A DNA stretch of 40,310 nt from Thiohalobacter sp. GTDB taxonomy: Bacteria; Pseudomonadota; Gammaproteobacteria; DSM-19610. Below the pieces are notes generated by a model. That model was not told where the DNA came from. It did no database searches and saw only the letters and a program-made list of their open reading frames with translations. Location of the stretch: assembly GCA_026984835.1 (NCBI GenBank), contig JALSRI010000188.1, positions 1-40,310 of the forward strand, read 5' to 3'. Each line of letters begins with the position of its first letter. Within the stretch, counting starts at the first letter, position 1. Positions 19,783-39,754 of the stretch are shown one piece after another. A program made the translations under genes and the position numbers.

Positions 19783-20883
19783 CTACAGGCGCATCGGCAT
19801 GACGACGTAGCGATACTGGTCCGAACCCGGCTGACGGATGAGGCAGCTGCTGTTGGAATCGCTCAGCGTCAGTTCCACCTGGTCGCTGCGCACGCTGCCG
19901 AGCACATCCAGCAGGTAGTTCACGTTGAAGCCGATCTCCAGGCCACCCCCTTGGTAGTCCACCTCGAACTCCTCGTCCGCCTGTTCCTGTTCAGGGTTAT
20001 GTGATTGAATTTTAACTATATTTTTATCCAGATTGAGGCGGATGCCGCGGTATTTCTCGTTCGACAGGATAGACGTCCGGCTCAGTGCCTGGCGAAGCTG
20101 CTCGCGATCGGCCAGGATGCGCTTGTCACCTCCCTTGGGCAGCACCCGTTCATAGTCCGGAAAGCGGCCATCGACCAGCTTGGAGGTGAACCGCAGGTCG
20201 CCGCGGCTGACGCGGATATGGTTGGTTCCGACTTCGACCTCGACCGGCGTGTCACTGTCCTCCAGCAGGCGCAGCAGTTCCTGGATGCCCTTGCGCGGCA
20301 CGATCACCTGCTGGCGACCGGGCAGCTCCACTTCCGACTGCATGTCGCACATGGCCAGGCGATGGCCGTCGGTGGCGACCGCACGCAGCAGGCTGGACGA
20401 GATCTCCAGCAGCAGGCCGTTGAGGTAGTAGCGCACATCCTGCTGCGCCATGGAGAAGTGCGTGCGCTCGATCAGCTCGCGCAACCGGTTCTGGGGGATC
20501 GAGAAGCGGGTCTCCCCCTGGACCTGTTCCACCACCGGGAAATCGCCGGCCGGCAAGGTCGACAGGGTGAAGCGGCTCTTGCCGGAGCGGATCTGGACCC
20601 GCTGATCCCTCTCCGACAACTGAACCTTCGCCCCTTCCGGGAGCGCCTTGCAGATATCCAGCAACTTGCGCGCCGGTACGGTGATCTCGCCGCCTTCGTC
20701 GACCTGGCTTCCGACGCCGGCCTGGATTTCGACTTCGAGGTCGGTCGCCGTGACCTGGATGCCCTCGTCGTCCGCCGTCAGCAGCAGGTTGCCAAGAACG
20801 GGCAGGGTCTGACGCCGTTCCACGACACCGATCACCTGCTGGAGCGGTTTCAAAAGGGTTTCTCTGTCGATAGTAAATTTCAT
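19783..20883 (-). CDS. dnaN: DNA polymerase III beta sliding clamp
   Basis: DnaN forms the dimeric ring that tethers DNA polymerase III and other clamp-binding proteins to DNA. The 366-residue product has the usual length and three-domain organisation. It begins MKFTIDRETLLKPLQQVIGVVERR and contains TLPVLGNLLL, the RLAMCD region, and the C-terminal QYRYVVMPMRL that lines the hydrophobic binding cleft. The ATG at 20883 fits the family start; the ribosome-binding site is a distant AAGGAA. It follows dnaA across the 193-base origin-like gap and precedes recF. Confidence 0.98.
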   Translation of the reverse strand: MKFTIDRETLLKPLQQVIGVVERRQTLPVLGNLLLTADDEGIQVTATDLEVEIQAGVGSQVDEGGEITVPARKLLDICKALPEGAKVQLSERDQRVQIRSGKSRFTLSTLPAGDFPVVEQVQGETRFSIPQNRLRELIERTHFSMAQQDVRYYLNGLLLEISSSLLRAVATDGHRLAMCDMQSEVELPGRQQVIVPRKGIQELLRLLEDSDTPVEVEVGTNHIRVSRGDLRFTSKLVDGRFPDYERVLPKGGDKRILADREQLRQALSRTSILSNEKYRGIRLNLDKNIVKIQSHNPEQEQADEEFEVDYQGGGLEIGFNVNYLLDVLGSVRSDQVELTLSDSNSSCLIRQPGSDQYRYVVMPMRL

Positions 20884-21076
20884 AATAGATTTAGATATTC
20901 CTTGAATTTGTAATTACTAGACCGGCCCATCCTTGTGGATAACACATTTTTCAATATCAATTTCAATCAATTGTATTCCCTACAACTGGCTTGACAAGTC
21001 GCCGTCAAGCTGTGAGCGGCCTGTGGATAAAGCGGGATGAAATCTGCCTCCTCCAATCATCCACAGGTTATCCACA
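20884..21076. other. Candidate chromosomal replication origin (oriC)
   Basis: This dnaN-dnaA gap is clearly AT-richer than its surroundings and holds three perfect DnaA boxes: TGTGGATAA at 20934-20942 and at 21022-21030, and TTATCCACA at 21068-21076, touching the dnaA stop codon. A near match, TCATCCACA, is at 21057-21065. The AT-rich stretch 20943-20975 next to the first box is a plausible unwinding element. dnaA-dnaN gaps are a known oriC location. In Pseudomonas the rpmH-dnaA gap is also used; here that gap has only one perfect box. Confidence 0.72.
20951..20968. repeat. Three tandem 6-base repeats in the putative unwinding element
   Basis: TCAATA, TCAATT and TCAATC lie head to tail, 8 bases from the DnaA box at 20934-20942. 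Short AT-rich direct repeats beside DnaA boxes are typical of origin unwinding elements. The run is short and could be chance in an AT-rich stretch. Confidence 0.5.
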
Positions 21077-22420
21077 TCAAGTGGTCAGAATTCTCCACAG
21101 GTTGCTGTAGTCCTCCGCGATGCGGTTGTCAGACTCCCGCAGCTCCGCCATCTTGCGGCAGGCATACAGGACCGTGGTGTGGTCCCGGCCGCCGAAGGCA
21201 CTGCCGATCTCCGGCAGGCTGTGGCCGGTCAACTCCTTGGCCAGCGCCATGGCGATCTGGCGCGGCCGCGTGATGGAGCGCGTACGGCGCGCCGACAGCA
21301 GGTCGGCAACACGGATCTTGAAGTATTCAGCGACAGTTTTCTGAATATTGTCAATCGAAACCAGCCTGTCGTGCAGCGCCACCAGGTCGCGCAAGGCTTC
21401 CTTGGTGAACTTGAGGTCGATACCGCGGTTGGTGAAGCGGGCACTGGCGATCACCCGCCGCAGCGCTCCTTCCAGTTCGCGGATGTTGGAATGGATGCGC
21501 TTGGCGATGAAGAACGCCACTTCGTTTGGCAGCTCGACGCCGGCCTGTGCCGCCTTGTTGACCAGGATGGCTACCCGCGTTTCCAGCTCGGGCGGCTCGA
21601 TGGCGACGGTCAGACCCCAGCCGAAGCGCGACTTGAGCCGTTCCTCAAGGCCGTTGACCTCCTTGGGATAGCGGTCGCAAGTCAGGATGACTTGCCGCTG
21701 GCCTTCAAGCAACGCATTGAAAGTATGGAAAAATTCCTCTTGCGAGCGTTCCTTTCCGGCGAAGAACTGGATGTCGTCGATGAGCAGGGCGTCGACCGAG
21801 CGATAATAGCGCTTGAATTCGTTGATGGCGTTGTGCTGCAGCGCCTTGACCATGTCGGCCACGAAGCGCTCGGAGTGCAGATAGATCACCTGGGCGTCCG
21901 GGTTCTTCTGCACGATGAGGTTGCCCACGGCGTGCATCAGGTGGGTCTTGCCCAGTCCGACGCCGCCGTAGATGAACAGGGGGTTGTAGGCACCGCCGGG
22001 ATGGCCGGCGACCTGCAGCGAGGCGGCGCGCGCCAGCTGGTTGGACTTGCCTTCGACGAAACTGTCGAAGGTGAAGGCCGCATTCAGGTTGCCGGTCGGC
22101 GGTGCGCGGCGCTCCCGGCGCCGCTCCTCGCCGCCGGGCGGCGCGGGCGCACTGGCAGGGGGCTCGACCGCCGGCGTGCTGCTGCCGATACCCAGCTCCA
22201 CCCGGATCGGGTTGTTGCTGTCGAGTTCCGCCAGCACGTCGCGAATGCTGCCGATGTAATGATCCCGGACCCAGTCCAGCACGAACCGGTTGGGCGCCAG
22301 CAGCTTCAGCGCCTGCGCATCCTCGATTGCGTGCAAGGGCAGTATCCAGGTCGTAAACTGCTGTTCTGGCAGCTCATTTTGAAGGTGGTCGAGACACTTT
22401 TGCCAAAGCGACGCGTGCAA
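21077..22420 (-). CDS. dnaA: Chromosomal replication initiator protein DnaA
   Basis: DnaA binds DnaA boxes at oriC, unwinds DNA and helps load the DnaB helicase. From TTG at 22420 the product has 447 residues. Domain I begins [21 protein letters not shown], followed by a proline-rich domain II (about 80-108). The AAA+ domain has Walker [10 protein letters not shown] (about 152-160) and Walker [10 protein letters not shown], and domain IV has the [17 protein letters not shown]-binding signature. TTG is chosen because similarity to other DnaA proteins begins there and AGAGGG lies 8 bases upstream. The frame is open a further 28 codons but that part is unlike DnaA and contains the promoter and a DnaA box. 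Confidence 0.97.
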
Positions 22421-22472
22421 CAGCTGTACCCTCTGCCAGAAGATTTCAGGGAAAGCCCGGTGAGAGCGGCCA

Positions 22473-22503
22473 AGTCTACCCCCGGCCGCCGCACTTATCC
22501 ACA
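22473..22503 (-). promoter_or_regulatory. Candidate dnaA promoter with overlapping DnaA box
   Basis: On the minus strand TGGATA (22501-22496), a 17-base spacer and TAGACT (22478-22473) form a moderate sigma-70 promoter, each hexamer 4 of 6. A perfect DnaA box occupies 22495-22503 and covers the -35 element. DnaA bound there would be expected to repress its own gene, as known in other bacteria. Confidence 0.5.
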
Positions 22504-22536
22504 CCCGGCGCGGCGGCCGACGTCAGGCCGCTGCGG

Positions 22537-22565
22537 TTGACAGTCGCGGCGACTGAAAGTACTCT
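22537..22565 (+). promoter_or_regulatory. Candidate rpmH promoter
   Basis: A perfect -35 TTGACA (22537-22542) is followed after 17 bases by TACTCT (22560-22565), a weak -10. Transcription would start near 22572, leaving a leader of about 57 bases before rpmH. Confidence 0.55.
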
Positions 22566-22579
22566 CCCCGCCCTGTTTC

Positions 22580-22606
22580 GCCCGCGCCAACGCGGGCTTA
22601 TTTACT
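22580..22606 (+). promoter_or_regulatory. Stem-loop with T-rich tail in the rpmH leader
   Basis: GCCCGCG, the loop CCAA and CGCGGGC form a perfect 7-base-pair stem (22580-22597), followed by TTATTTACT. This looks like an intrinsic terminator but lies between the predicted promoter and rpmH. It may be an attenuator, or a 5' structure that protects the message. Confidence 0.5.
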
Positions 22607-22628
22607 TGTCACGGGACCTGATTGCGCC

Positions 22629-22763
22629 ATGAAGAGAACATTCCAACCCAGCAACCTGAAGCGCAAGCGTACGCACGGTTTCCGCGCCCGGATGCGCACC
22701 AAGGGCGGCCGCATGGTCATCAAGGCTCGCCGCGCCAAGGGCCGCGCGCGCCTGTCCGCCTGA
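22629..22763 (+). CDS. rpmH: 50S ribosomal protein L34
   Basis: The 44-residue, very basic product is ribosomal protein L34. It begins [19 protein letters not shown] and ends KGRARLSA, matching the family along its whole length. L34 is a late-assembling protein of the large subunit. It is the first gene of the rpmH-rnpA-yidD-yidC run, divergent from dnaA, the standard gammaproteobacterial arrangement next to the origin. Confidence 0.98.
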
Positions 22764-22776
22764 GTCAGCCGATTTC

Positions 22777-23157
22777 TTGAGCGTCGCAGCGACGCGCTAC
22801 CCACGTGCCCTACGGCTGCTGAAACCGGCTGATTTCCAGCGCGTCTTCAAGCAGGCCCGCTACAAGTCCGGCGATCGCTACCTGACGGTGCTGGCCCGGC
22901 CCAATGGCCTTGGCCACCCGCGGCTGGGCATGGCGATCTCGATCCGCAATGCCGGCAATGCCGTGGCCCGCAACCGGGTCAAGCGGGTCATCCGGGAGTG
23001 TTTCAGGCTCAGCCAGGCGCGACTGGATTCCCTGGACCTGGTCATCGTCGGACGCGCCGGCATCGCCACGCGCAGCAACCGGCAACTGGTCGAGTCGCTG
23101 CAACACCACTGGCAGAAGATCACGGACCATGCGCAGACTGATGTTATTGATGATTAG
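22777..23157 (+). CDS. rnpA: Ribonuclease P protein component
   Basis: RnpA is the protein cofactor of RNase P, which trims the 5' leader from precursor tRNAs. From TTG at 22777 the product has 126 residues. It shows the family pattern: a basic protein with [17 protein letters not shown] near the start, [10 protein letters not shown], and the signature [14 protein letters not shown] that contacts the RNA. The only earlier start-like codon that fits is the TTG, 13 bases after rpmH; the ribosome-binding site is poor, so coupling to rpmH translation is likely. The last 29 bases overlap yidD. Confidence 0.95.
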
Positions 23158-23359
23158 CGGTTACCGAGTGCTGCTCAGTCCGCTGCTGGGCAACAACTGC
23201 CGCTATTACCCCACCTGCTCCTGCTATGCCCATACTGCCATCGAACGCTTCGGCGTACTGAAGGGCGGCTGGCTGGCGTTGCGCCGCATCGGGCGCTGCC
23301 ATCCCTGGCACGAAGGCGGGCTGGACCCCGTTCCGGAGAAGCACACCCCCCATGGATAA
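23129..23359 (+). CDS. yidD: Membrane protein insertion efficiency factor YidD
   Basis: The 76-residue product matches the YidD family: [19 protein letters not shown] as an N-terminal amphipathic helix, [19 protein letters not shown] with conserved cysteines, and the [15 protein letters not shown] motif. YidD is a small inner-membrane-associated protein that aids YidC-dependent insertion. The usual CxYxPTCSxY signature is intact. It overlaps both the end of rnpA and the start of yidC, so this run is tightly coupled. The larger open frame that begins upstream is not the gene; the ATG at 23129 matches the family start. Confidence 0.96.
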
Positions 23360-25016
23360 TCCCCGCGTACTGCTGTTCATCGCACTCTCGTTCCTGTTTC
23401 TGCTCCTATGGCAGGCCTGGATGGACGACTACGGCAAGCCGCCGCAACCGGTCGCCGGCCAGCAGGCCGTCGAGCAGGCGGGCGCACCCGGTGAGCAGGC
23501 GCCGCGGGTGGCCGCAGGTGAGGACCTCCCCAGCCACCAGCCGGCTACCGCCGCCGGCGAGGCGCCGCCGCCGGAGACGGCCCGCCTGCAGAGCGGCCAG
23601 CGCGTCGATATCCGCACCGATCTGATCCACGCCGAAGTCGACAGCCGCGGCGGCGACCTGCGGGTCCTGGACCTTTTGGCCTATCCCGAAACCACTGCAC
23701 CCGACAGTCCGCCGTTCCGGCTCCTGGACGATCGGGGCCCGGAACTGTTCGTGGCCCAGTCCGGGCTGCGCGCCGCCGCCGGAGACGAGCCGACCCATCA
23801 CGCCGACTACCGGGTGGAGCAGAGCCGCTACCGGCTGGCCGACGGCCAGGACGTGCTCGAAGTGCCGCTGCACTGGCGCAGCAAGACCGGGGTGGATGTC
23901 ACCAAGGTATACCGATTCCACCGCGGCAGCTACGTCGTCGACGTCGAGTACCGCATCGACAACCGCGGCACCGAGGCCTGGAGCGGCCGCCCCTACAGCC
24001 AGTTCCAGCGCACGGAACCGGAAAAAAAGAAAGGCGCGCAGTTCATTCGCACCTATACCGGTGCCGTGATCTACAGCCCGGAAGAAAAGTACGAGAAGAT
24101 CCCGTTCAAGGACATGAAGGAGCAGGACCTCAGCCGTGACATAACCGGCGGCTGGACGGCCATGATCCAGCACTATTTCCTGGCCGCCTGGATCCCCCCG
24201 GCCGACGAGACGGAACACTATTATTCGCGCGCGCTGCGCGACGGGCGCTACATCGTCGGCCTGATCGGCCAGCCCGCGGAGGTGGCCGCCGGCCAGCAGC
24301 GCCTGCTCACGGAACGCCTGTACGCCGGCCCCAAGCTGCAGGATCACCTCGCCGAGGTGGCGCCCGGTCTGGAACTCACGGTCGACTACGGCCTGCTCAC
24401 GTTCATCTCCGAACCCCTGTTCTGGCTGCTGGAGAAACTGCACGCCCTGTTCGGCAACTGGGGCTGGGCCATCGTGGTGCTGACCATGCTCATCAAGGCG
24501 GCCTTCTTCAAGCTCTCCGAGACCAGCTACAAGTCCATGGCCAACATGCGCAAGCTGGCGCCGCGGCTGCAGGCGCTCAAGGAGCGCTACGGCGACGACA
24601 AGCAGCGCCTCAACCAGGCCATGATGGAGATGTACAAGAAGGAGAAGATCAACCCGCTGGGCGGCTGCCTGCCGGTGCTGGTGCAGATCCCGGTGTTCAT
24701 CGCCCTGTACTGGGTGCTGGTCGAGAGTGTGGAGCTGCGCCAGGCGCCCTTCATCCTGTGGATCCAGGACCTGTCGGCCGCCGATCCCTACTTCGTTCTG
24801 CCGGTGGTCATGGGCGTGACCATGCTCATCCAGCAGAAACTCAACCCGGCGCCCATGGACCCCATCCAGGCCAAGGTCATGATGATCCTGCCCATCGTCT
24901 TCACGGTGTTCTTCGCCTTTTTCCCGTCGGGTCTGGTGCTGTACTGGGTGGTGAACAACACCCTGTCGATCGCCCAGCAGTGGGTTATCACGAGGCGGGT
25001 CGAGCAGGGCCGCTAG
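23352..25016 (+). CDS. yidC: Membrane protein insertase YidC
   Basis: YidC inserts and folds inner-membrane proteins, alone or with SecYEG. The 554-residue product is the long gram-negative form. The first membrane helix is at about 5-20, followed by a proline- and alanine-rich linker and a large periplasmic beta-sandwich (about 75-335). The conserved five-helix core includes [21 protein letters not shown], the cytoplasmic coiled-coil with [21 protein letters not shown], and [20 protein letters not shown]. The expected neighbour mnmE is not downstream; instead a convergent response-regulator gene ends 23 bases away. Confidence 0.98.
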
Positions 25017-25039: not shown

Positions 25040-25969
25040 TCAGCTTTCCGGCTGACCGATCCGCTCGCCGAGAATCGTCTGGATCGCCACCGACGCCGCT
25101 GCCGTGCGGTTGCTGGCACCGATCTTGGGGTAGATCTGCTCCAGGTGCTTGTTCACGGTTCTCGGGCTCATGCCGAGGATTTCCGCGATCTCCCGGTTGG
25201 TCTTTCCATGCGCAAGCCACAGCAGCACCTCGGCCTCGCGGGTGGTGACGGACAGGCTGTCTTCCAGCACGGCGGGGTCGATCTCGACATCCGGAGACTG
25301 GATCTTCAGCAGGTATTCGTCCTCGCCCGACTGCTTGAAGTAGCACACCGTCAGTCTCCGCTCCGCACCGCGCAGGGGCAGTGCCAGGTTGTGCCCGGCC
25401 TGTCCGGTGGGCAGCCAGCGCCTGAGCCGGTCGCCGAGTTCCACCGCGCCGTCCGCCGCGCTGTGCCGGTAGCGGTCGAGCAGCGCCTGGGCCTCCGGCG
25501 TGGCCCACAGCAGCCTGCCGCGGCGATCAACGCAAAACACATACTGACGCATGGCATCCAGCACATTGCGTGCTTCCATCAGCATCCGCGTACTCTGGGT
25601 ATGCTGCTGGATGCGCACCAACAGTTCCTCTGGGTGGATCGGCTTGACGATGTAATCGTTGCCGCCCGCATCGAAGGCCTTGACGATGTGTTCGACCTCG
25701 CTCAGGCCGGTCATGAAAATGATCGGCGTCAGCGGCAGCTTCCTGCGGACCTCCCGGGCGCACTCGAAACCGTCCATCACCGGCATCACGGCATCCATCA
25801 GGATCACGTCCGGCGTGACCTGCTCCAGCACGTTCATCGCCTGCTGGCCATTCAGCGCAACCAGTACGGCGATCCCGGCCTCGTCCAGCGCCAGGTTGAT
25901 CATGCCCAGGGAGTCAGGGGAGTCGTCGACGACCAGCACGGTCGTCTTGCCCTTGAATTTGTGCTTCAT
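25040..25969 (-). CDS. Response regulator with receiver, middle and LuxR-type DNA-binding domains
   Basis: The 309-residue product has a CheY-like receiver (about 8-125, phosphoacceptor Asp59 in VILMDAVMP, conserved Lys109). A middle region (about 130-225) looks PAS-like, with VFCVDRRGRLLWATPEAQALL. The C-terminal helix-turn-helix (about 240-300) has LSVTTREAEVLLWLAHGKTNREIAEILGMSPRTVNKHLEQIY, here quoted in overlapping parts of the LuxR/NarL class: TNREIAEILGMSPRTVNKHL. It starts 6 bases after the stop of the upstream permease-kinase gene, so the two form an operon and a likely signalling pair. The divergent porin-urt-ure genes are the obvious candidate targets; this is inferred from position. 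Confidence 0.9.
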   Translation of the reverse strand: MKHKFKGKTTVLVVDDSPDSLGMINLALDEAGIAVLVALNGQQAMNVLEQVTPDVILMDAVMPVMDGFECAREVRRKLPLTPIIFMTGLSEVEHIVKAFDAGGNDYIVKPIHPEELLVRIQQHTQSTRMLMEARNVLDAMRQYVFCVDRRGRLLWATPEAQALLDRYRHSAADGAVELGDRLRRWLPTGQAGHNLALPLRGAERRLTVCYFKQSGEDEYLLKIQSPDVEIDPAVLEDSLSVTTREAEVLLWLAHGKTNREIAEILGMSPRTVNKHLEQIYPKIGASNRTAAASVAIQTILGERIGQPES

Positions 25970-25975
25970 AGGGAT

Positions 25976-28900
25976 CTACCCTTGCTTTCTTGCTTCTTCG
26001 ATGACATGGACGATGCCGTCCAGTTCGCACTTGTCGGTCAACGCCCTGAGCTTTTTCACCCAGGGGGAATCCGGTGCCTGCTTCTCCAGTCGTTCCAGCC
26101 AGTCGACCACACCTGTCAAATAACCGAGCCGGGCGGCGCGCTCCAGTTCCTCCAGCATCTCCGGGTCGGGCAGAAATCCCGGGCTGGCCGCTGCGTTTTC
26201 CGTCGGCGCTTTGTCTTCCTGTTCGGTGTCACACCAGCGCAGATCCAGGCAGCGCTGCAACTGCTCCAGCAGTTTCTCTATGCGTACCGGTTTGTAGATA
26301 TACGCCTCGAAATCCGTTTCACCCGGTTGTTTGCGGGCGTATTCGTAGGGATCGGCCGACAGGATGATGATCGGTTCCTCGAAGCCGCGCCTGCGGAGCT
26401 CGGCCAGCAACTGCCAGCCGTCCATGCCCGGCATGTTGATGTCCAGCAGGAACAGATCCACCGGATGGTCCTCGAGCAGCGCCAGGGCCTGTTCCGCCGA
26501 TGCCGCCTGATGCACCACGAAGCCCAGCGGATAGAGAAAATCACGAATCAGTTCGCGATGACTGTCTTCGTCGTCGACCACCATGATGTGGCGCGGCCGC
26601 CCCTCATAGCCGTGAATGCCGGCATTTTTCCCGGTCGTCACCACGCCGCCTGCCACGCCCGGCAGGAACAGACTCAGAAAGAATTCGGTGCCCTCCCCGG
26701 GACGACTCTTGAGCGCCAGATTGCCGCCCATCATTTCGATCAGAAGACGGCTGATCGACAGGCCGAGGCCGGTGCCGCCGATCAGCCGGGTCTGTTCGTT
26801 GCGCACGCGCTCGAAGGGTTCGAATATCCGTGATTGATCTTCCTCGGCAATGCCGATACCCGAGTCGCGGATCACGAAACGGGCGACCTGGTTGCGGTAG
26901 CTGATCGTCATCTCGACCCCGCCTTCGGGGGTAAACTTGATGGCGTTGGACAGCAGATTGAGCAGGATCTGCCGCAGGCGCTTCTCGTCCACGGACACGA
27001 AGCGGGGCAGTTCGTTCCGGCAATGAACCTCGAAGTTGATTCCCTTGTCTTCGGCCATGGGCCGGAACATATCCTCCAGCTCCTGGATCAGGGTGCGCAG
27101 ATCGACCGTGTCCCGGTGCAGCTCGAGTTTCCTTGCCTCGATCTTGGAAATCTCCAGCAGCCCTTCGATCACGTCCGACAGGTGTTCACTGCTGCGCCGT
27201 ATCACGGTGGAAATCCTTCGGGTCTTGGCATCCGCGCCGGCATCCATTTCCATCAAGCGGGCATAACCGAAGATGGTGTTCAGCGGTGTCCGGAGTTCGT
27301 GGCTGACCCCGGACAGATACCTCGACTTGGCCTTGTTGGCGGCATTGGCCGCATCCCGGGCCTTGGCGAGTTCCACGGCGGTTACCTCGTGCGCCATCAC
27401 CTCCTTCTGCATGCGTTCGGCCTGGAGCTGGATTTCGCTCAGCGCAAAGCGCGCGCTCTTCTGCGCCAGCACGTACAGCCAGATCAACACCCCGGTGACC
27501 AGCATCAGCAGGAAGAACACTTGCCACAACACATCACCGATCAGGTCCTGGCTTGCTGGTGCCTTGCTCTGCTGGGCATGGAACACGACCGACAACAGGC
27601 CGGCGATGATGCCGGCCGTCACCAGGAAGACCCCCAGGTAGTGGCCGGTGACGGAATGCAGGCGCCGGTTGATGAAGGCGGGCAGTATGCGTCCAAACAG
27701 GTCTGATGCCTGTGCGGCCAGATGGGCGTCCGGCCGGCACTGGTTCCCGCAGCGCGCATCCAGCGCACAACACAGGGAACAGATGGCGCCATCGTAGGTG
27801 GGACACCGGCTGATGTCTTCTGCATCGAACCGGTTTTCGCAGATCCGGCACTGTTGCCGGGCGCTGTCATGCGCCGGATCCTCTTTCTCGCGGCACAGAT
27901 AAAACCGGCCCCGGGTCAGCCAGGCGATGAGCGGCACGGTGAAAAAGGGGATCGACAGGGAGATGAAGGCCGCCAATGCCTCTGCCTCGGCACCGAAGAC
28001 GCCCGAGTTGGCGGCGATGCCGGCGCAGGATGCCACGAACATCGAGATCACCCCGACCGGATTGACGTCGTACAAGTGGCTGCGCCGAAACTCGATGTGC
28101 GACGGACTCAGCCCCAGCGGTTTGTTGATGACGAGGTCGGCCACCACGCTGCCGAGCCAGGCCACCACCAGGCTCGCGTAGGTGATCAGAATGGCTTCGA
28201 ACGCCTGGTAGAGCCCCAGTTCCATCAACATCAGCGCGATGGCGACATTGAATACCAGCCATACCACCCGCCCCGGATGGCTGTGGGTCAGCCGGGAAAA
28301 GAAGTTGCCCCAGGCGATCGAGCCGGCATAGGCATTGGTGACATTGATTTTCAGTTGTGAAATGACGACGAAGACGCCTGCCAGCCACAACGCCATGTCA
28401 GGATGGATCGTGATATAACCGAATGCCACGGCATACATGTGTGCAGGGTCACCCGCCAGCGCGGGCGACAGTCCCTGGTTCAGGGCCAGCACGGCCAGAA
28501 ACGAGCCGACGAACAGCTTGACGATGCCGAATACCACCCAGCCTGGCCCGGCACCTATCACCGCCATCCACCAGTATATCCGGTTCTTCCGGTTCGCCAC
28601 CGGCAGAAAGCGCAGAAAATCGGCCTGTTCCCCGTTCTGTGCGAGGAGCGGGAAAATGACGGCGGCGGCGGCACCGAACATCATCAACTCGAAGCCCTGA
28701 CCACCGCTTGCGGAGGCACCCCCGAAGGCCAGCCATTGCCGGAAGGCATCGGATTCGTACGCCGCGATGTAGACCAACGGCACCATCTGCAGCACCAGCC
28801 ACAGCGGCTGCGTCCAGGCCTGGAAGCGGGAAATGCGGCTGATGCCATGGGTCGCCAGCGGGATCACCACGACTGTGCTGATGACGTACGCCAGCGACAA

Positions 28901-29344
28901 CGGGATGTCCGCCACCATGTGGATGGCCATGGACATGATGGCCGCTTCCAGGGCGAAGAAAATGAACGTGAACGACGCGTAGACCAGCGAGGAAATCGTC
29001 GACCCGATATAGCCGAAGCCGGCGCCGCGGGTCAGCAGGTCGATATCCACCCCGTCGCGGGCGGCGTAATAGGCGAGCGGGAGCCCCGACAGGAAGATGA
29101 TGGCGCCGACCACCAGGATCGCCCACATGGCATTGGCAAACCCGTAGTTGAGGGTAATGGTGCCGCCGATGGCTTCCAGCGCCAGGAAGGAGACAATGCC
29201 CAGCGCCGTATTGGCGACCCAGCCCGCCGACCAGCGCCGCGCCCGCTTGGCGGTGTAACGCAGCGCATAGTCTTCCAGCGTCTCATTCGCGACCCACTGA
29301 TTGTATTCGCGCCGGATCCGCAGGGGATCCTTGTTCATGCTCAT
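25976..29344 (-). CDS. NCS1 permease-hybrid histidine kinase fusion
   Basis: This 1122-residue protein joins a transporter-like sensor to a kinase. Residues about 20-480 are an NCS1-type (purine-cytosine permease) domain with about 12 membrane helices, starting with ETLEDYALRYTAKRARRWS. A cysteine-rich segment (499-536) has pattern CxxC-x11-C-x7-CxxCC-x5-C-x3-C. Two more helices (about 566-628) lead to a coiled coil, HisKA with His682 in SHELRTP, and the ATPase domain (NLLSNAIKF, DSGIGIAEED, GTGLGLSIS). A receiver (about 918-1035, Asp968) and a helical tail follow. NCS1 proteins carry nucleobases, allantoin or hydantoins. Position beside urea genes suggests sensing of urea or a purine-derived precursor. 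Whether it transports is unknown. Starts at 29344 or 29338 are both possible. Confidence 0.9.
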   Translation of the reverse strand: MSMNKDPLRIRREYNQWVANETLEDYALRYTAKRARRWSAGWVANTALGIVSFLALEAIGGTITLNYGFANAMWAILVVGAIIFLSGLPLAYYAARDGVDIDLLTRGAGFGYIGSTISSLVYASFTFIFFALEAAIMSMAIHMVADIPLSLAYVISTVVVIPLATHGISRISRFQAWTQPLWLVLQMVPLVYIAAYESDAFRQWLAFGGASASGGQGFELMMFGAAAAVIFPLLAQNGEQADFLRFLPVANRKNRIYWWMAVIGAGPGWVVFGIVKLFVGSFLAVLALNQGLSPALAGDPAHMYAVAFGYITIHPDMALWLAGVFVVISQLKINVTNAYAGSIAWGNFFSRLTHSHPGRVVWLVFNVAIALMLMELGLYQAFEAILITYASLVVAWLGSVVADLVINKPLGLSPSHIEFRRSHLYDVNPVGVISMFVASCAGIAANSGVFGAEAEALAAFISLSIPFFTVPLIAWLTRGRFYLCREKEDPAHDSARQQCRICENRFDAEDISRCPTYDGAICSLCCALDARCGNQCRPDAHLAAQASDLFGRILPAFINRRLHSVTGHYLGVFLVTAGIIAGLLSVVFHAQQSKAPASQDLIGDVLWQVFFLLMLVTGVLIWLYVLAQKSARFALSEIQLQAERMQKEVMAHEVTAVELAKARDAANAANKAKSRYLSGVSHELRTPLNTIFGYARLMEMDAGADAKTRRISTVIRRSSEHLSDVIEGLLEISKIEARKLELHRDTVDLRTLIQELEDMFRPMAEDKGINFEVHCRNELPRFVSVDEKRLRQILLNLLSNAIKFTPEGGVEMTISYRNQVARFVIRDSGIGIAEEDQSRIFEPFERVRNEQTRLIGGTGLGLSISRLLIEMMGGNLALKSRPGEGTEFFLSLFLPGVAGGVVTTGKNAGIHGYEGRPRHIMVVDDEDSHRELIRDFLYPLGFVVHQAASAEQALALLEDHPVDLFLLDINMPGMDGWQLLAELRRRGFEEPIIILSADPYEYARKQPGETDFEAYIYKPVRIEKLLEQLQRCLDLRWCDTEQEDKAPTENAAASPGFLPDPEMLEELERAARLGYLTGVVDWLERLEKQAPDSPWVKKLRALTDKCELDGIVHVIEEARKQG

Positions 29345-29647
29345 CGACGGCTCAACACATCTGAAAGGCAGCCCGGGAACATGGCTGCTTCACCCGCGGA
29401 CCCTGTACCCAAGCCGGCACACGGATGCGGTATCCCCCTTAGTAACAAGTACTCCAATACCCCAACCACGGGGATTCCGCCATGCGTCATTTGACGTATA
29501 TCCCTGCGCTGGATTCCGGATTCTACCCCACTCCGCCTGCGAATAGACTCGGTGCCCATGAAAGCCGTCCGGTTCGCTCGCACGCTTTCCCTGGGGTTTG
29601 TTCGATCATCAACCGGCCGCCTGGCCACAACAACAGGAATTCGAAAA
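29345..29647. promoter_or_regulatory. Divergent control region between kinase and porin genes
   Basis: This 303-base gap should contain the promoters for the kinase operon (leftward) and the porin-urt-ure run (rightward). Visible structure includes the 18-base dyad at 29482-29499, AGTA-N5-TACT at 29442-29454, and a CCCC-N6-GGGG repeat around 29461-29473. By eye I found no sigma-54 promoter, no NtrC-type site and no convincing -10/-35 pair. An ATG frame open from 29552 runs into the porin gene but lacks a signal sequence of its own. Confidence 0.55.
29482..29499. promoter_or_regulatory. 18-base dyad, candidate operator
   Basis: ATGCGTCATTTGACGTAT has complementary arms AT-N-CGTCA and TGACG-N-AT around a 2-base centre. 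It is the strongest symmetry in the divergent gap, 149 bases before the porin start. The LuxR-type regulator encoded nearby would bind a dyad of about this size. No experimental support is available. Confidence 0.45.
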
Positions 29648-30783
29648 ATGCTCAACAAACATACTGTTGCAAAATCGCTGCTTCTCGGCAGTCTGCTGGC
29701 CCTGACCGGCAGTTCGGCGCTGGCGGCCGGGAAAATCGCCATTGACGATACCCGCTGGGTCAGCTTCGGCGCCGGTATCCGCACCTCGATCGCCTCCACG
29801 GAAGACGGTGCGCCGAACGGTGACCGGGGTACGGATTTCAACCTGGACAACATGCGCCTGTATGTGTCCGGCCAGGTCACCCGGGATTTCAAGTTCTACT
29901 TCGGCACCGACAAGATGTGGGGCGAGTATGGTGTGCTGGATGCCATCGTCCAGTACGAGCCGGGACCAGCCTTCAACGTCTGGGTCGGCCGCATGCTGAC
30001 CCCCGCCGACCGCATCGAAATGAACGGACCGTTCTATGGCCTGACCTGGGGACAGTATACCGTTCCCCTGTTCCCGTCGGACAACGACACCAGCAACGGG
30101 GCCGACGGCGTGGCGGGCACCTTTGGACGTGACGAAGGCATCACCATCTGGGGTTCACAGGGCAAGTTTCAGTACGCCTTCGGCGTCTTCGACGGCTACA
30201 GTGGCGACGAGAACCAGAGCGATGCCCTGCTCTATGCCACGCGTCTGGCCTACAACTTCTTGAACAAGGAATCCAATCCCGGCTATTACACCAGCAGCAC
30301 CTACTTCGGACAGGCCGGCGACATTCTGACGCTGGCAGTGTCCGCGCAGTACCAGGATGACGGATACGGCACGGTGACGGAGCGCGGTTCCTTCACCGGT
30401 TACGCCATCGACGGTCTGTTTGAAAAGCCACTCGAAGGCGGGGCCGTGATCACCGTCGAAGGTGAGTACAAGTCGTTTGACGTCGATACCGATGCCGCAG
30501 TCCCGGTGTTCCCGATGTTTGACGGGGACGCCTTCTTCGTTTCCGCGGCCTATCTTATGCCGGGCCAGGGTGGCATGGGTCGCTACCAGCCGTATCTACG
30601 TTTCACCCGCAACGACCCATCCGCCGGCGACGACAGTTCGCTGACCGAAGTGGGGGTCAACTACGTGATCTCGGGGCACAACCTCAAACTGAACCTCAAT
30701 CTGACCAGCGGTGACGCCAACGCCAGCGGCACCAAGGGGAACGACACCGACACCATCACCTTCGGCATGCAGTTCCAGATCTG
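29648..30783 (+). CDS. Outer-membrane porin, likely for urea or small amides
   Basis: The 378-residue product has a signal peptide (hydrophobic residues about 8-26, cleavage after ALA near 27). A beta-barrel porin follows, with alternating strands such as FNLDNMRLYVSGQVTRDFKFYFG, quoted in family terms as the LYVSGQV and KFYFGTDKM segments. The last residues TFGMQFQI end in an aromatic-containing strand without the common terminal phenylalanine. It resembles phosphate-selective porin O/P and short-chain-amide porin relatives. The ATG at 29648 is preferred to upstream ATGs because AGGAA lies 8 bases before it and the signal peptide starts there. urtA follows after 27 bases, so a role in urea entry is likely but inferred. 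Confidence 0.85.
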
Positions 30784-30810
30784 ATGGTCCAACATTCAGG
30801 AGACGATGAC

Positions 30811-32106
30811 ATGACCAAGACACGATTCAAGAACCTGGCTATGGCGCTGGTGATCACCGCCGTATCCTTCGCCGCCGCGGGTCTGGCCCGGGCAGAGGAA
30901 ACCATCAAGGTGGGTATACTCCACTCCCTGTCCGGCACCATGGCCATTTCCGAGACCACGCTGAAAGACACCATGCTGATGCTGATCGACGAACAGAACA
31001 AGAAAGGCGGCCTACTCGGCAAGAAGCTCGAAGCGGTGGTGGTCGATCCGGCATCCAACTGGCCGCTGTTCGCGGAGAAGGCGCGCGAGTTGATCACCAA
31101 GGACCATGTGGTCGTGACCTTCGGCTGCTGGACCTCGGTCTCCCGCAAGTCCGTACTGCCGGTGTTCGAGGAACTGAACGGCATCCTGTTCTACCCGGTA
31201 CAGTACGAGGGCGAGGAGTCCTCGAAGAACGTGTTCTACACCGGTGCCGCACCGAACCAGCAGGCCATCCCGGCGGTGGACTATCTCATGAACGAACTGG
31301 GTGTGAAACGCTGGGTGCTGGCGGGTACGGACTATGTCTATCCGCGCACCACCAACAAGATCCTCAAGGCCTACCTGATCGCCAAGGGGGTCAAGGAAAG
31401 CGACATCATGATCAACTACACGCCGTTCGGTCATTCCGACTGGCAGTCGATCGTTTCCGAGATCAAGAAGTTCGGCAGCGCCGGCAAGAAGACCGCTGTC
31501 GTCTCCACCATCAATGGCGATGCCAACGTGCCTTTCTACAAGGAACTGGGCAACCAGGGCATTTCCGCGGAAGACATCCCGGTGGTGGCGTTCTCCGTGG
31601 GTGAAGAGGAGCTGTCTGGTCTCGACACCAAACCGCTGGTCGGCCATCTGGCGGCATGGAACTACTTCATGAGCGTCGAGTCCGACGAAAACGACCGTTT
31701 CATCCGCGCCTGGAAGAAGTACATCAAGGACGACAAGCGCGTCACCAATGACCCCATGGAGGCCCATTATATCGGCTTCAACATGTGGGTGAAGGCGGTT
31801 GAAAAGGCGGGAACCACGGACCCGGCTGCCGTTCAGGAAGCGCTGATCGGTGTTGCAGTGCCGAATCTGTCGGGTGGCTACTCTGCCATGATGCCGAACC
31901 ACCACATCACCAAGCCGGTACTGATCGGCGAGATCCAGGACAACGGCCAGTTCGATATCGTCTGGGAGACTCCGGGCCTGGTCGCCGGTGATGCCTGGTC
32001 GGACTACCTGCCGGGCTCCCGTGATCTGATCTCCGACTGGCGCGCACCGCTGTCCTGTGGCAACTACAACGTCAAGACCAAGAAGTGCAGCGGTCAGAAC
32101 TACTGA
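30811..32106 (+). CDS. urtA: Urea ABC transporter, substrate-binding protein UrtA
   Basis: UrtA is the periplasmic urea-binding protein that feeds the UrtBCDE importer. From ATG 30811 the product has 431 residues with a signal peptide (about 1-28, cleavage after ARA). The mature protein has the family hallmarks IKVGILHSLSGTMAISE, the VFGCWTSVSRKSVLPV-like segment (here TFGCWTSVSRKSV), LFYPVQYEGEESSKN, and YVYPRTTN in the ligand cleft. AGGAG lies 8 bases upstream of the ATG. The frame is open nine codons upstream but without a ribosome-binding site. It lies 27 bases after the porin and before urtB. A stem-loop follows the stop. Confidence 0.97.
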   Translation: MTKTRFKNLAMALVITAVSFAAAGLARAEETIKVGILHSLSGTMAISETTLKDTMLMLIDEQNKKGGLLGKKLEAVVVDPASNWPLFAEKARELITKDHVVVTFGCWTSVSRKSVLPVFEELNGILFYPVQYEGEESSKNVFYTGAAPNQQAIPAVDYLMNELGVKRWVLAGTDYVYPRTTNKILKAYLIAKGVKESDIMINYTPFGHSDWQSIVSEIKKFGSAGKKTAVVSTINGDANVPFYKELGNQGISAEDIPVVAFSVGEEELSGLDTKPLVGHLAAWNYFMSVESDENDRFIRAWKKYIKDDKRVTNDPMEAHYIGFNMWVKAVEKAGTTDPAAVQEALIGVAVPNLSGGYSAMMPNHHITKPVLIGEIQDNGQFDIVWETPGLVAGDAWSDYLPGSRDLISDWRAPLSCGNYNVKTKKCSGQNY

Positions 32107-32132: not shown

Positions 32133-32283
32133 AATCGGGCGACAAAGCAATAAATCGGTAGTCCATCGGGTGGTATGAGCAATGCACAGGATACAAACGG
32201 ATGCCTCGTCGAATCCCTTGTGTCCTGTGCTCTTTCCCGTGCAGCCCCGGACTGTCCAGAGCCGGTTCGAAGCGGGGCAGCTC

Positions 32284-33921
32284 ATGCGTGAATCGTTGAC
32301 GACAGTTGTGGCGGGCAGGCTGTTGCCGCTGCTCCTGTTGTTGTTTCTCTGGACAGGGCTTGCACCGCGAGTACTGGCCGAAGAAGTCATGGACCCGTCC
32401 GCGCTGCAGGAGGCATGGAAGGCACTGACGCAAAAGAGCTACAGCAAAAAGGAAAAGGCGATCGAGTTCATAGCCCGTCACGACGGTGCCGATGCCTACC
32501 CGGCCATGAAGGCGATGCTGGATGGCAAACTGTATTTTTCCATCCGCGACAGGACATTGTTCATCCTGAACGAAGAGAACGGACACTACACGTTCACCCC
32601 CCTGTCCGGCGGGCAGGTGGTCAGCCAGCAGACCCGGCGGGGCTTCAAGAAGGTGAAGATCAACAACCGGCTGAGGACCCGGCTGCGCCAGGCGCTGGCG
32701 TTGCAGCAGCTCCGGCATGACGACCGCGACCTGCGCCTGGCCGCCGTGCAGGAGTTGTTGAAAAATCCCGATACCCGGGCCGCGCGCCTGATCCGTAACG
32801 TCATCGAGCGGGAGCCCGATGCAGCCGTCCGGACCGCCATGCAGACCCTGCTGGCGATCATGCAACTCGAGGATGGCGACGAAAGCGCGCAACGACAGGC
32901 CATCGACGAACTGGCCGGCAGCCTGAACCCGTCCGCGCTGAACGCGCTGAAGGCATACCGGCCGCCGGACGAGGCATTGAAGAACCTGGCTGCTGCCGCC
33001 ATACGTAAAATCAACCACCGACGCGAACTGTATGCCCACGCGGAAACGGTCTTTTTTGGCCTCAGCCTGGGCTCGGTGCTGGCGCTGGCGGCCATCGGCC
33101 TCGCCATCACCTTCGGTGTCATGGGCGTGATCAACATGGCCCACGGCGAGCTGATCATGATCGGCGCCTATACCACGTATGTGATCCAGCTGCTGATGCC
33201 GGAACATATCGGCATTTCGGTGATCGTGGCCATCCCGGCCGCCTTCGTTGTCTCGGGCCTGGTGGGCATGGTCATCGAACTCAGCGTGATCCGCCATCTG
33301 TACGGCCGCCCGCTGGAAACGCTGCTGGCAACCTTCGGCGTAAGCCTGGTACTGCAGCAGACCGTGCGATCCATCTTCTCACCGCTCAACCGCAGCGTCG
33401 AGACCCCGCAGTGGATGTCCGGCGCCTTCCCGGTCAACGAGGTGCTCGCGCTGACCTGGAACCGTTTCTACATCATCATTTTCTGCCTGACCGTGTTCGT
33501 TGCGCTGATTCTGGTGATGAAAAAGACCCTGTTGGGCCTGCAGGTGCGGGCGGTTTCGCAGAACCGCCTGATGGCGCGCGCCATGGGTGTACGTTCCAAG
33601 TGGGTCGATGCCCTGACCTTTGGACTGGGTTCCGGCATTGCCGGTATGGCCGGCGTGGCGTTGAGCCTGCTGACCAACGTCGGCCCCAACCTCGGCCAGT
33701 CCTACATCATCGATTCCTTCATGGTCGTGGTGTTCGGGGGCGTCGGCAACCTGTGGGGGACGCTGGTGGCGGGGATGAGCCTCGGTATCATCAACAAGCT
33801 GCTGGAGCCCTGGGCGGGCGCCGTGCTGGCGAAGATTCTGGTGCTGGTCTTCATCATCCTGTTCATCCAGAAACGCCCCACCGGCCTGTTCCCCCAACGC
33901 GGCCGCGCGGCGGAGGATTGA
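32284..33921 (+). CDS. urtB: Urea ABC transporter, permease UrtB
   Basis: UrtB is one of the two membrane subunits of the urea importer. From ATG 32284 the product has 545 residues. The N-terminus is a signal or anchor segment (about 5-30), then a helical, HEAT-like region of about 220 residues on the outer side. A LivH-type permease domain follows, with GLSLGSVLALAAIGLAITFG, MAHGELIMIGAYTTY and VVFGGVGNLWGTLVAG. The long N-terminal region is a usual UrtB feature. An upstream ATG at 32182 would add 34 residues ahead of the signal segment and is less likely. urtC starts 4 bases after the stop. Confidence 0.95.
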   Translation: MRESLTTVVAGRLLPLLLLLFLWTGLAPRVLAEEVMDPSALQEAWKALTQKSYSKKEKAIEFIARHDGADAYPAMKAMLDGKLYFSIRDRTLFILNEENGHYTFTPLSGGQVVSQQTRRGFKKVKINNRLRTRLRQALALQQLRHDDRDLRLAAVQELLKNPDTRAARLIRNVIEREPDAAVRTAMQTLLAIMQLEDGDESAQRQAIDELAGSLNPSALNALKAYRPPDEALKNLAAAAIRKINHRRELYAHAETVFFGLSLGSVLALAAIGLAITFGVMGVINMAHGELIMIGAYTTYVIQLLMPEHIGISVIVAIPAAFVVSGLVGMVIELSVIRHLYGRPLETLLATFGVSLVLQQTVRSIFSPLNRSVETPQWMSGAFPVNEVLALTWNRFYIIIFCLTVFVALILVMKKTLLGLQVRAVSQNRLMARAMGVRSKWVDALTFGLGSGIAGMAGVALSLLTNVGPNLGQSYIIDSFMVVVFGGVGNLWGTLVAGMSLGIINKLLEPWAGAVLAKILVLVFIILFIQKRPTGLFPQRGRAAED

Positions 33922-33925
33922 GTCC

Positions 33926-35014
33926 TTGTTTCTGAACGAGTTCCGACGAAACGACAAACCCGGCGTCTGGTTGCTTGCGGCCCTGCTGGTTTTCAGTATC
34001 GTCGTGCCGGTACTGAACCTGGCGGTGCCCGAAAGCAGCGTGCTGCACCTGTCGACCTATACGGTCACCCTGCTGGGCAAGTACCTCACCTACGCCCTGC
34101 TGGCGCTTGCGGCCGACCTGGTATGGGGGTATCTCGGCATCCTCAGTCTTGGCCACGGCGCCTTCTTCGCGCTCGGCGGTTACGCCATGGGTATGTACCT
34201 GATGCGGCAGATCGGAGAGCGCGGCGTGTACGGTGACCCGCTGTTGCCGGACTTCATGGTGTTCCTGAACTGGCATGAACTGCCCTGGTTCTGGCACGGA
34301 TTCGACCAGTTCGGCTTTGCCATGCTGATGGTGCTGCTGGTTCCCGGCCTGCTGGCCTGCGTCTTCGGCTACCTGGCGTTTCGGTCCCGCGTCACCGGCG
34401 TCTACCTGTCGATCATGACTCAGGCCATGACCTATGCGTTGATGCTGGCCTTCTTCCGCAACGAAATGGGGTTCGGCGGCAACAACGGACTGACGGACTT
34501 CAAGGACCTGCTGGGTTTCGATCTGCGCGCGGACAGTACGCGCATCGGCCTGTTCCTGGCCTCGGCGGCAGCCCTGGCCCTGGCCTATCTGGTCACTCGC
34601 TACATCGTTGATTCCCGGCTCGGCCTGGCCAGCGTGGCCATCCGCGACGCGGAAAGCCGTACCCGCTTCATCGGCTACCGGGTCGAGAACATCAAGCTTT
34701 GGGTGTTCGTCTTCTCGGCCATGCTGGCGGGTGTTGCCGGCGCCCTCTATGTGCCGCAGGTCGGCATCATCAATCCCGGTGAATTCTCGCCGCTGAACTC
34801 CATCGAACTGATCATCTGGGTCGCCATCGGCGGCCGTGGCACCCTGTACGGTGCCGTCATCGGTGCGCTGCTGGTCAATTACGCCAAGACCTATTTCACC
34901 GCCGCGCTGCCGGAAGTCTGGCTGTACGCGCTGGGCGGGCTGTTCATTCTGGTCACCCTCTACCTGCCCAGGGGCATCGTCGGCCTGCGTCATCTGCGGA
35001 GAGCAGGGACATGA
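33926..35014 (+). CDS. urtC: Urea ABC transporter, permease UrtC
   Basis: UrtC is the second membrane subunit, of the LivM type. The 362-residue product has about 9-10 membrane helices and the motifs ADLVWGYLGILSLGHGAFFALGGYAMGMYL, here as GYLGILSLGHGAFFALGGYA, and FSAMLAGVAGALYVPQVGII. It starts with TTG at 33926; GGAGG at 33912-33916, 9 bases upstream, supports this. The stop overlaps the urtD ATG in ATGA, so translation is coupled. Extended loops between helices (for example around 85-120) are typical of UrtC. Confidence 0.95.
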   Translation: MFLNEFRRNDKPGVWLLAALLVFSIVVPVLNLAVPESSVLHLSTYTVTLLGKYLTYALLALAADLVWGYLGILSLGHGAFFALGGYAMGMYLMRQIGERGVYGDPLLPDFMVFLNWHELPWFWHGFDQFGFAMLMVLLVPGLLACVFGYLAFRSRVTGVYLSIMTQAMTYALMLAFFRNEMGFGGNNGLTDFKDLLGFDLRADSTRIGLFLASAAALALAYLVTRYIVDSRLGLASVAIRDAESRTRFIGYRVENIKLWVFVFSAMLAGVAGALYVPQVGIINPGEFSPLNSIELIIWVAIGGRGTLYGAVIGALLVNYAKTYFTAALPEVWLYALGGLFILVTLYLPRGIVGLRHLRRAGT

Positions 35015-35841
35015 GACCGGTGCAGGCCCTGCGGAAGTTCACCCGCCGCGACCGGGTGTTGGAGTTTCTGACAAAACCCCTGCCGCCGGATGTCGACGTC
35101 AGCCACAATGTCATCCTGTATCTCGACGATCTCAACAAGAGTTTCGACGGTTTCAAGGTCATCGACAACCTCAACCTGTACATCGAAACCGGGGAACTGC
35201 GCTGCATCATCGGCCCCAACGGCGCCGGCAAGTCCACCATGATGGACATCATCACCGGCAAGACCCGGCCCGACAGTGGACAGGCCTGGTTCGGCCAGCG
35301 CCTCGATCTGTTGCGCATGGACGAACCGGAGATCGCCGAGGCCGGCATCGGGCGCAAGTTCCAGAAACCCACGGTGTTCGAGAACCTGAGCGTGTTCCAG
35401 AATCTCGAACTGGCCATGGCCCAGGACAAGCGGGTATGGCCGCTGCTGGCCGCGCGGCTTACCGGCGAGCAGCGCGACCTGATTGAAGAGGTGATGCATC
35501 TCATTGGTCTGCAGGCCTTGTCGGCTGAACCGGCAGGTAAACTCTCCCACGGCCAGAAGCAATGGCTGGAAATCGGCATGCTGCTGATGCAAAAGCCGGC
35601 CCTGCTGCTGGTCGACGAACCCGTGGCCGGCATGACACACCAGGAAATGGAGCGCACCGCCGAACTGCTCACGTCGCTGGCCGGCAAGCACTCCGTGGTG
35701 GTGGTGGAACACGACATGGATTTCGTCCGTTCCATCGCCCGCAAGGTGACGGTGCTGCACCAGGGCAGCGTGCTGGCCGAAGGCAGCATGGCCGAGGTGC
35801 AGAACGACCCGCGTGTGGTCGAGGTCTACCTGGGGGGGTGA
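35011..35841 (+). CDS. urtD: Urea ABC transporter, ATPase UrtD
   Basis: UrtD is one of two ATP-binding subunits of the importer (LivG type). The 276-residue product has an N-terminal extension of about 35 residues before the ABC domain, as in other UrtD proteins. Walker A is GPNGAGKST, the Q-loop region reads GIGRKFQKPTVFENL, the signature is LSHGQKQWLEIGMLL and Walker B is LLLVDEPVAGM. The signature glycine pattern is slightly altered (SHGQ), which is normal for this family. It overlaps urtC by 4 bases and urtE begins one base after its stop. Confidence 0.96.
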   Translation: MRPVQALRKFTRRDRVLEFLTKPLPPDVDVSHNVILYLDDLNKSFDGFKVIDNLNLYIETGELRCIIGPNGAGKSTMMDIITGKTRPDSGQAWFGQRLDLLRMDEPEIAEAGIGRKFQKPTVFENLSVFQNLELAMAQDKRVWPLLAARLTGEQRDLIEEVMHLIGLQALSAEPAGKLSHGQKQWLEIGMLLMQKPALLLVDEPVAGMTHQEMERTAELLTSLAGKHSVVVVEHDMDFVRSIARKVTVLHQGSVLAEGSMAEVQNDPRVVEVYLGG

Positions 35842-35842
35842 C

Positions 35843-38047: not shown

Positions 38048-38051
<4 letters not shown>
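37425..38051 (+). CDS. ureAB: Urease gamma-beta fusion subunit (UreA-UreB)
   Basis: The 208-residue product joins the two small urease subunits in one chain. Residues 1-100 are UreA (gamma), with [21 protein letters not shown] quoted in part as [31 protein letters not shown] and ending [18 protein letters not shown]. Residues about 109-208 are UreB (beta), with [32 protein letters not shown] and [12 protein letters not shown]. The linker is only about 8 residues. AAGGAG lies 5 bases before the ATG. Most proteobacteria keep separate ureA and ureB; fused forms are known in Helicobacter and some others. No remnant start codon is seen at the junction. It overlaps ureC by 4 bases. Confidence 0.95.

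Positions 38052-39754
<1,703 letters not shown>

Follow-up and report, generated by a model that had tools for sequence, protein, structure and literature searches.

Fusions of a nutrient transporter to a histidine kinase are already known, among them CbrA and other SLC5/STAC kinases (PMC7096432, PMC7918813) and the ammonium transporter-kinase fusion Ks-Amt5 of Kuenenia (PMC5764959), and in CbrA a lysine (Lys196) occupies the Na2 site (PMC13022988). For amides, formamide and urea both induce the fmd genes of Methylophilus (PMC10781810), and an amide transporter cluster was noticed earlier in Bradyrhizobium (PMC3098086); a dedicated two-component receptor for urea or amides was not found described in the open-access literature. 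Here we analyse a stretch of 40,310 nucleotides from Thiohalobacter sp. (contig JALSRI010000188.1; 'the window' means this whole stretch), in which a gene at 25976-29344 joins an NCS1-like membrane domain to a hybrid histidine kinase beside urea uptake and urease genes. An earlier reading of the window (the original prediction) named CbrA-like fusions as precedent, and the two reports on SLC5/STAC kinases cited above show that the kind is indeed a known one. We consider it likely that the window protein is a transporter-derived urea receptor that activates a porin-urtABCDE-ureD(AB)CE operon via a LuxR-type regulator and a palindrome. The gene and its parts are as follows.

25976-29344, reverse strand: gene for the NCS1-like hybrid sensor histidine kinase, 1122 aa, a single unbroken ATG open reading frame; relatives share the architecture
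27911-29275, reverse strand: NCS1-like LeuT-fold membrane domain, residues 24-478 (hhalign and Foldseek)
27737-27850, reverse strand: 8-Cys cluster, residues 499-536, putative zinc-ribbon-like metal site; invariant Cys in 22 representatives
27452-27655, reverse strand: two-helix membrane linker, residues 564-631 (hydropathy; modelled helices 565-589 and 596-659)
27134-27331, reverse strand: HisKA (DHp) domain, residues 672-737, phosphoacceptor His682 in SHELRTPL (Pfam PF00512, E=2.6e-15)
26666-26989, reverse strand: HATPase_c domain, residues 786-893 (Pfam PF02518, E=9e-29)
26258-26587, reverse strand: receiver domain, residues 920-1029, phosphoacceptor Asp968 (Pfam PF00072, E=6.3e-23)

Open reading frame, Pfam, profile comparison and structure comparison together show that one protein carries about 460 residues of NCS1-like permease domain followed by kinase, ATPase and receiver domains, as the original prediction had claimed. 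HisKA, HATPase_c and Response_reg all score far above their Pfam cut-offs, and the motifs expected of a hybrid histidine kinase are intact: SHELRTPL in the H-box (681), the N-box (796), two G-boxes (827 and 857) and LLDINMP in the receiver (966). The first 660 residues gave no Pfam match: PF02133, the NCS1 family, was not matched by the window protein, by 22 aligned relatives or anywhere in the window's genome, and the relation to NCS1 was invisible to Pfam, phmmer and hmmsearch against the PDB. With a single sequence, hhalign against CodB gave a borderline result (E=0.005, probability 7%), and the NCBIfam cytosine-permease model matched the domain weakly (30 bits, E=2e-7, far under its cut-off). 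The relation was settled only by comparing profile with profile: hhalign of 167 family members against CodB and 27 PF02133 proteins gave a probability of 99.6 and E=1.6e-23 over residues 24-478 (398 columns). A Foldseek search of the AlphaFold model of the sensor (predicted TM-score 0.75) against the PDB placed Mhp1 and CodB in the best four positions (E between 5.5e-7 and 1.2e-6, target-based TM-score of up to 0.74), with Nramp behind at E 4.4e-5 and SSS structures outranked by those of NCS1 proteins, and one kinase-less homologue exceeds the PF02133 cut-off (31.5 versus 23.5 bits). No SSS or other Pfam match precedes HisKA, which sets the protein apart from the SSS/SLC5 plus STAC architecture of the CbrA type. 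As judged from profiles and the model, the N-terminal part is a divergent NCS1-like branch and not a typical nucleobase permease.

The link to urea genes, which had been drawn from divergent orientation, now rests on association counts, on a conserved palindrome and on kinase-less homologues within urease and formamidase operons. In 398 evenly drawn Pseudomonadota genomes the family occurred in 53 (about one in eight); 49 loci from this phylum sample were fetched, 48 of them with readable flanks. All 48 adjoin either formamidase/amide genes (32) or urt/urease genes (16), and the 32 loci linked to the formamidase gene fmdA nearly always also carry an amide-type UrtABCDE-like ATP-binding cassette (ABC) transporter. 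An NCBIfam match of 771 bits, against a cut-off of 500, supports the identity of FmdA. Relatives adjoining either urea or formamide genes number in the hundreds. The original prediction had called for a count of urt or ure genes within 10 kb of such sensors, and the expected association was found: 42/48 loci have a gene for an ABC permease of the UrtB type no more than about 10 kb away, and 15/48 have urease genes. By chance, a single-copy gene would fall within any one 20-kb stretch of a genome of 4-5 Mb in roughly one of 200 loci, so the association is far beyond chance even when shared ancestry is allowed for (37 genera). The 80 nearest relatives from a named collection are a set dominated by Bradyrhizobium and limited by flank length, and therefore not an unbiased count; a UrtA-type gene was found in 72 of them, FmdA in 64 and UreC in 3. 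A homologue of the regulator lies directly downstream of the sensor in 79 of these 80 and in 47/49 phylum-sample loci. Four genomes (G525, G591, G612 and G744) carry two copies, one beside fmdA and the other beside ure.

The original prediction had proposed a sensor of urea, allantoin or another purine product. Its urea part is supported and its purine part is not: no allantoin, uracil or other purine genes turned up among the linked genes, in which purine genes were not searched for systematically. FmdA with the amide-type ABC transporter is the commonest partner in the phylum sample (32/48), which points to urea together with short-chain amides as the ligand class of the family. Two observations on individual loci are recorded here. 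A ClpB/ClpA-like AAA ATPase gene recurs beside fmdA in Alcanivorax/Marinobacter-type loci (L047:2481-3518 and relatives); a 345-aa gene taken as an amidase is actually an AAA ATPase. Downstream of the sensor-regulator pair of L111, which lacks urea and formamide genes in its vicinity, is a gene for a nucleoside transporter of the NupC type (L111:4814-6061).

A candidate regulatory element adds to the neighbour counts. Upstream of the sensors a dyad, TACGTC-N4-GACGTA, is over-represented (12/53 formamidase-linked loci, compared with at most one in shuffles), and the full palindrome TACGTCAnnTGACGTA, allowing up to three mismatches, has a density of 1.19 per kb in the interval from sensor to transporter genes versus 0.022 per kb elsewhere in the same loci (about 55-fold). 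In 12 loci whose fmdA lies kilobases away, a copy also precedes that gene by 58-130 nt, and since the motif was discovered in the sensor upstream region, these distant occurrences are an independent check. The copy in the window is the only perfect TRCGTCANNTGACGYA match in its 2.87 Mb genome. The LuxR-type regulator presumably binds this palindrome. Profile matches confirm the urea uptake and urease genes beside the sensor, with the porin-urtABCDE-ureD-ureAB-ureC-ureE series divergent from the sensor gene:

25040-25969, reverse strand: cognate response regulator with receiver and LuxR/GerE helix-turn-helix domains (Pfam), 309 aa, 6 nt downstream of the sensor gene
29483-29498, no strand: candidate operator TGCGTCATTTGACGTA (consensus as above), 54 nt before the porin start
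29552-30784, forward strand: outer-membrane porin gene (profile match to Porin_O_P; weak match to ExtI model)
30784-32106, forward strand: urtA, urea ABC binding protein (TIGR03407, 574.8 bits, cut-off 492.75)
32182-33921, forward strand: urtB (TIGR03409, 426 bits, cut-off 250.3)
33926-35014, forward strand: urtC (TIGR03408, 447.6 bits, cut-off 296.2)
35011-35841, forward strand: urtD (TIGR03411, 386.1 bits, cut-off 304.1)
35813-36538, forward strand: urtE (TIGR03410, 331.6 bits, cut-off 285.8)
36535-37392, forward strand: ureD (PF01774, E=8.7e-53)
37425-38051, forward strand: fused ureAB (PF00547 and PF00699 in one reading frame)
38048-39754, forward strand: ureC, urease alpha subunit (TIGR01792, 987.9 bits)
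39763-40242, forward strand: ureE (PRK13261, 195.5 bits); the contig ends at 40310

All five UrtABCDE subunits thus exceed the NCBIfam urea-transporter cut-offs. Scans of the intergenic region for a sigma-70 promoter and a terminator found nothing. The LuxR-type response regulator, the 8-Cys cluster and the two-helix linker are features that the original prediction did not contain. Since urease and urt genes are present in the window's genome and FmdA is absent from it, urea is the best guess for the ligand of this sensor. Several features of the neighbourhood stand apart from the sensor. UrtB is extended at its N-terminus by some 280 aa, which match a HEAT-repeat model weakly (4.8e-6, under the curated cut-off), and the urease gamma and beta subunits share one open reading frame, an arrangement known from Helicobacter rather than from free-living Gammaproteobacteria. 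Just past the regulator gene lie dnaN, yidD and yidC (19783-25016), and the system therefore probably sits near the replication origin.

In the mechanism we favour, urea would reach the NCS1-like domain from the periplasm and bind in what was once the substrate pocket, between its bundle and hash helices. The 8-Cys module, in the cytoplasm, and the two-helix linker would relay the resulting conformational change to the DHp domain, altering the autophosphorylation of His682. The signal would reach the LuxR-type regulator either directly or through Asp968 of the receiver domain, and the regulator would bind the palindrome at 29483-29498 and switch on the porin-urtABCDE-ureD(AB)CE operon. In the family as a whole, this machinery may serve formamide and short-chain amides, with an amide ABC transporter and formamidase, or urea, with urt and urease genes, and kinase-less members would be the corresponding permeases. 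The domain architecture, the homology to NCS1 proteins, the associations with neighbouring genes, the palindrome with its conservation and placement, and the pattern of pocket conservation are direct observations; from these we infer the ligand, the signal direction, the phosphorelay route, operator binding by the regulator and the permease activity.

The kinase-less relatives bear on this reading directly. In one genus, 7/7 such proteins of one type are encoded within ureD-ureC-ureE-ureF-ureG clusters (L123, L221-L226); they are 540-580 aa long (one is a fragment), and their genes are mostly followed by one for a NicO nickel transporter. A second type in the same genus (3/3) has the order regulator-sensor | kinase-less relative-fmdA-fmdB, and a fourth permease-fmdA-fmdB case comes from another family (L115 and L227-L229 in all). 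The order in sister species is regulator-sensor | urtABCDE-type amide ABC transporter-fmdA-fmdB, so that the kinase-less protein stands where the ABC transporter stands in the sister species and the simplest reading of it is a urea or formamide permease. The kinase-less NCS1-like proteins are thus apparently permeases for these compounds, with L123 and L221-L226 as candidate urea permeases and L115 and L227-L229 as candidate formamide permeases. The tree splits kinase-less members from all sensors with a support of 97. Outputs other than a kinase also occur: the protein at L121:7352-11026 has the NCS1-like domain and 8-Cys front followed by PAS-GGDEF-EAL (Pfam-confirmed), and that at L122:9523-13338 lacks a kinase H-box and looks similar, which suggests a cyclic-di-GMP output for both.

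Pocket residues were predicted by alignment to those of CodB (PMC9379551). In the profile alignment, CodB Q105, W108 and N280 correspond to T126, F129 and N334 of the window protein, and the Na2 threonines T278/T279 correspond to K332/I333, in sensors and kinase-less members alike; the Thr/Ser pair of the Na2 site on TM8 is thus missing, and Lys332 in its place suggests sodium independence. CodB F204 falls at position 234 (I/V/M/L) in the pairwise alignment, gap placement in TM6 (TM, transmembrane helix) being less certain in the profile alignment. The stacking Trp of NCS1 proteins is replaced by Phe/Leu (F129 in the window), and the aromatic sandwich for a ring substrate (Trp in TM3, Phe/Trp in TM6) was not found. 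T126, E133, Q236, E239, Q240, K332, N334, N337 and Y339 are fixed in 137 labelled sensors and in the kinase-less members. Glu133 lies four residues past the position aligned with W108, which we take to correspond to Mhp1 Gln121, counted from Mhp1 Trp117. Since a polar pocket without the stacking Trp suits a small non-ring ligand, the predicted pocket (E133, Q236, E239, Q240 and N334, with F129) fits a small non-aromatic one. It is possible, if doubtful, that the NCS1-like domain of the sensor also imports urea, as the SLC5 domain of CbrA does histidine, and that transport or occupancy drives the kinase. All predicted pocket residues, including Lys332 at the Na2 Thr place, are present in the kinase-less homologues of urease and fmdA operons, and CbrA, which has Lys196 in its Na2 site, transports histidine (PMC13022988, PMC7096432). 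However, a high-affinity ABC transporter is normally encoded alongside, which would make transport by the sensor redundant, and Glu57 (TM1) is E in 155/155 sensors and F/Q in 10/10 kinase-less permeases, a fixed difference that suggests an altered cycle in the sensor.

We consider it unlikely that the window sensor instead responds to a different, related compound that co-occurs with urea, such as acetamide, carbamate, a guanidine-like compound or another nitrogen source. Most family members adjoin formamidase and not urease, and NCS1 proteins can import non-ring nitrogen compounds, for example metformin (PMC13390362). Against this, the window's clade and genome have urease and a urea transporter without FmdA: the window falls in a well supported clade of 14, of which nine are urea-linked, five unlinked and none formamidase-linked. 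On the tree, which has 90 rows, urea and formamidase labels cluster strongly, yet they need five (sensors only) or six changes, and these switches track the neighbouring enzyme; as read from the adjoining genes, the family has switched between formamide and urea several times. Positions 129 and 336 vary almost only in urea-linked sensors and were considered as urea determinants. Against this proposal, the window clade keeps the ancestral F/T at these positions, and an independent-pair test was not significant.

The transition between the membrane domain and the kinase raises a further alternative. The eight cysteines of residues 499-536 (C-x2-C-x11-C-x7-C-x2-CC-x5-C-x3-C), which should be cytoplasmic from the NCS1 topology, were kept in nearly all relatives sampled after the 22 representatives; AlphaFold modelled a short beta hairpin there, and residues 490-660 (module and linker) had no Pfam match. 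It would be a poor bet that this cluster senses a metal (Zn/Ni) or redox state while the NCS1-like domain is mainly a membrane anchor. The invariance of the eight Cys in sensors is what such a role would lead one to expect, as are the four that remain in the permeases of urease operons, mostly followed by a nickel transporter gene; but polar pocket residues fixed over about 150 sensors are not expected of an anchor, and the cluster, whole or cut to four Cys, is also retained by the kinase-less members. The idea that the 8-Cys/two-helix module is a widely used linker was dropped, as a search of the 398 genomes found it only in this sensor/permease family, the exceptions being a relative in G653 that is truncated and, in G443, a remnant of 50 aa. 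The G653 relative (L261:6841-8710) starts inside a degenerate Cys module, its NCS1-like part gone, and looks like a decaying copy. That the protein is an ordinary hybrid kinase with urea genes nearby by coincidence, as the few relatives without such neighbours might suggest, is very improbable and already contradicted by the linkage of 48/48 phylum-sample loci and by the palindrome common to the divergent region and the fmdA promoters.

Several observations weigh against the urea receptor reading. In a class-wide sample, in which the family was found in 17/369 genomes, six loci with readable flanks (L107, L111, L113, L116, L121 and L122) have no urea or formamide gene nearby, and neither does L125 of the family sample; among the genomes with unlinked loci, four have urease elsewhere and no FmdA. 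Genome G155 has two copies with GGDEF/EAL-type outputs in place of the kinase and has neither urease nor FmdA. Many loci, among them those of several urease-linked clades and of the Bradyrhizobium type, either lack the palindrome or have no recognisable copy. The AlphaFold model is of moderate confidence (predicted local distance difference test 73), the changes at positions 129 and 336 do not extend to the window clade, and the signal could be linked to ammonia or could be a metal read by the Cys cluster.

We lean, by a little, towards a broader conclusion: that these proteins form an undescribed, NCS1-derived LeuT-fold receptor with a sister permease family for urea and formamide, in which both forms coexist, outputs are interchangeable (kinase or GGDEF/EAL-type), the Na2 sodium has given way to lysine and five or more switches of preference have taken place between formamide and urea. 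As nitrogen sources, urea and amides are of major importance, and for them the family offers a testable receptor candidate, a putative operator and NCS1-type proteins that are candidate permeases for urea and formamide. Receptor and permease versions of one fold stand together here and differ at few fixed positions, such as Glu57, so that nature itself provides an experiment on the change from transporter to receptor, and the repeated switches are a route to the residues that determine the ligand. No description of an NCS1-kinase fusion or of an NCS1-type urea or formamide receptor was found in the open-access literature, which is weak evidence of novelty as most subscription journals lie outside it.

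Among described systems, CbrA, CrbS/MxtR, RpuS and PrlS (SLC5/STAC) likewise have a LeuT-fold transporter domain in front of a histidine kinase, hybrid or not, some of these kinases pair with a LuxR-type regulator as the window sensor does, and the Na2-site lysine of CbrA (PMC13022988) resembles Lys332 at the aligned position. They differ in having an SLC5/SSS domain and a STAC/PAS linker, whereas the window sensor has an NCS1-like domain, the 8-Cys module and a two-helix linker, and in ligand, which is histidine for CbrA and predicted to be urea or amides here. Ks-Amt5 (PMC5764959) similarly uses a nutrient transporter domain fused to a kinase as a sensor of a nitrogen source, but it has the Amt/Rh fold and senses ammonium, in contrast to the LeuT fold and the presumed ammonium precursors of the present family. 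With the NCS1 permeases CodB, Mhp1, PucI and MetT the sensor shares homology and fold over about 400 residues; unlike them it falls below Pfam detection, has Lys-Ile for the Na2 Thr pair and Phe/Leu for the stacking Trp, and is fused to a kinase. Operon III of Ectopseudomonas guguanensis G3 (PMC13296017) has a hybrid histidine kinase and LuxR regulator beside urtABCDE and fmdA, like the fmd-linked loci here; the section of that report describing the operon gives gene order only, with nothing on a permease domain or function. Methylophilus fmdCABDEF and B. japonicum blr0968-blr0973 (PMC10781810, PMC3098086) combine an amide/urea ABC transporter with FmdA as in our loci, the Methylophilus cluster additionally having a porin and FmdB; no sensor kinase has been identified in these two systems, and the sensor family described here is a candidate regulator wherever it is carried.

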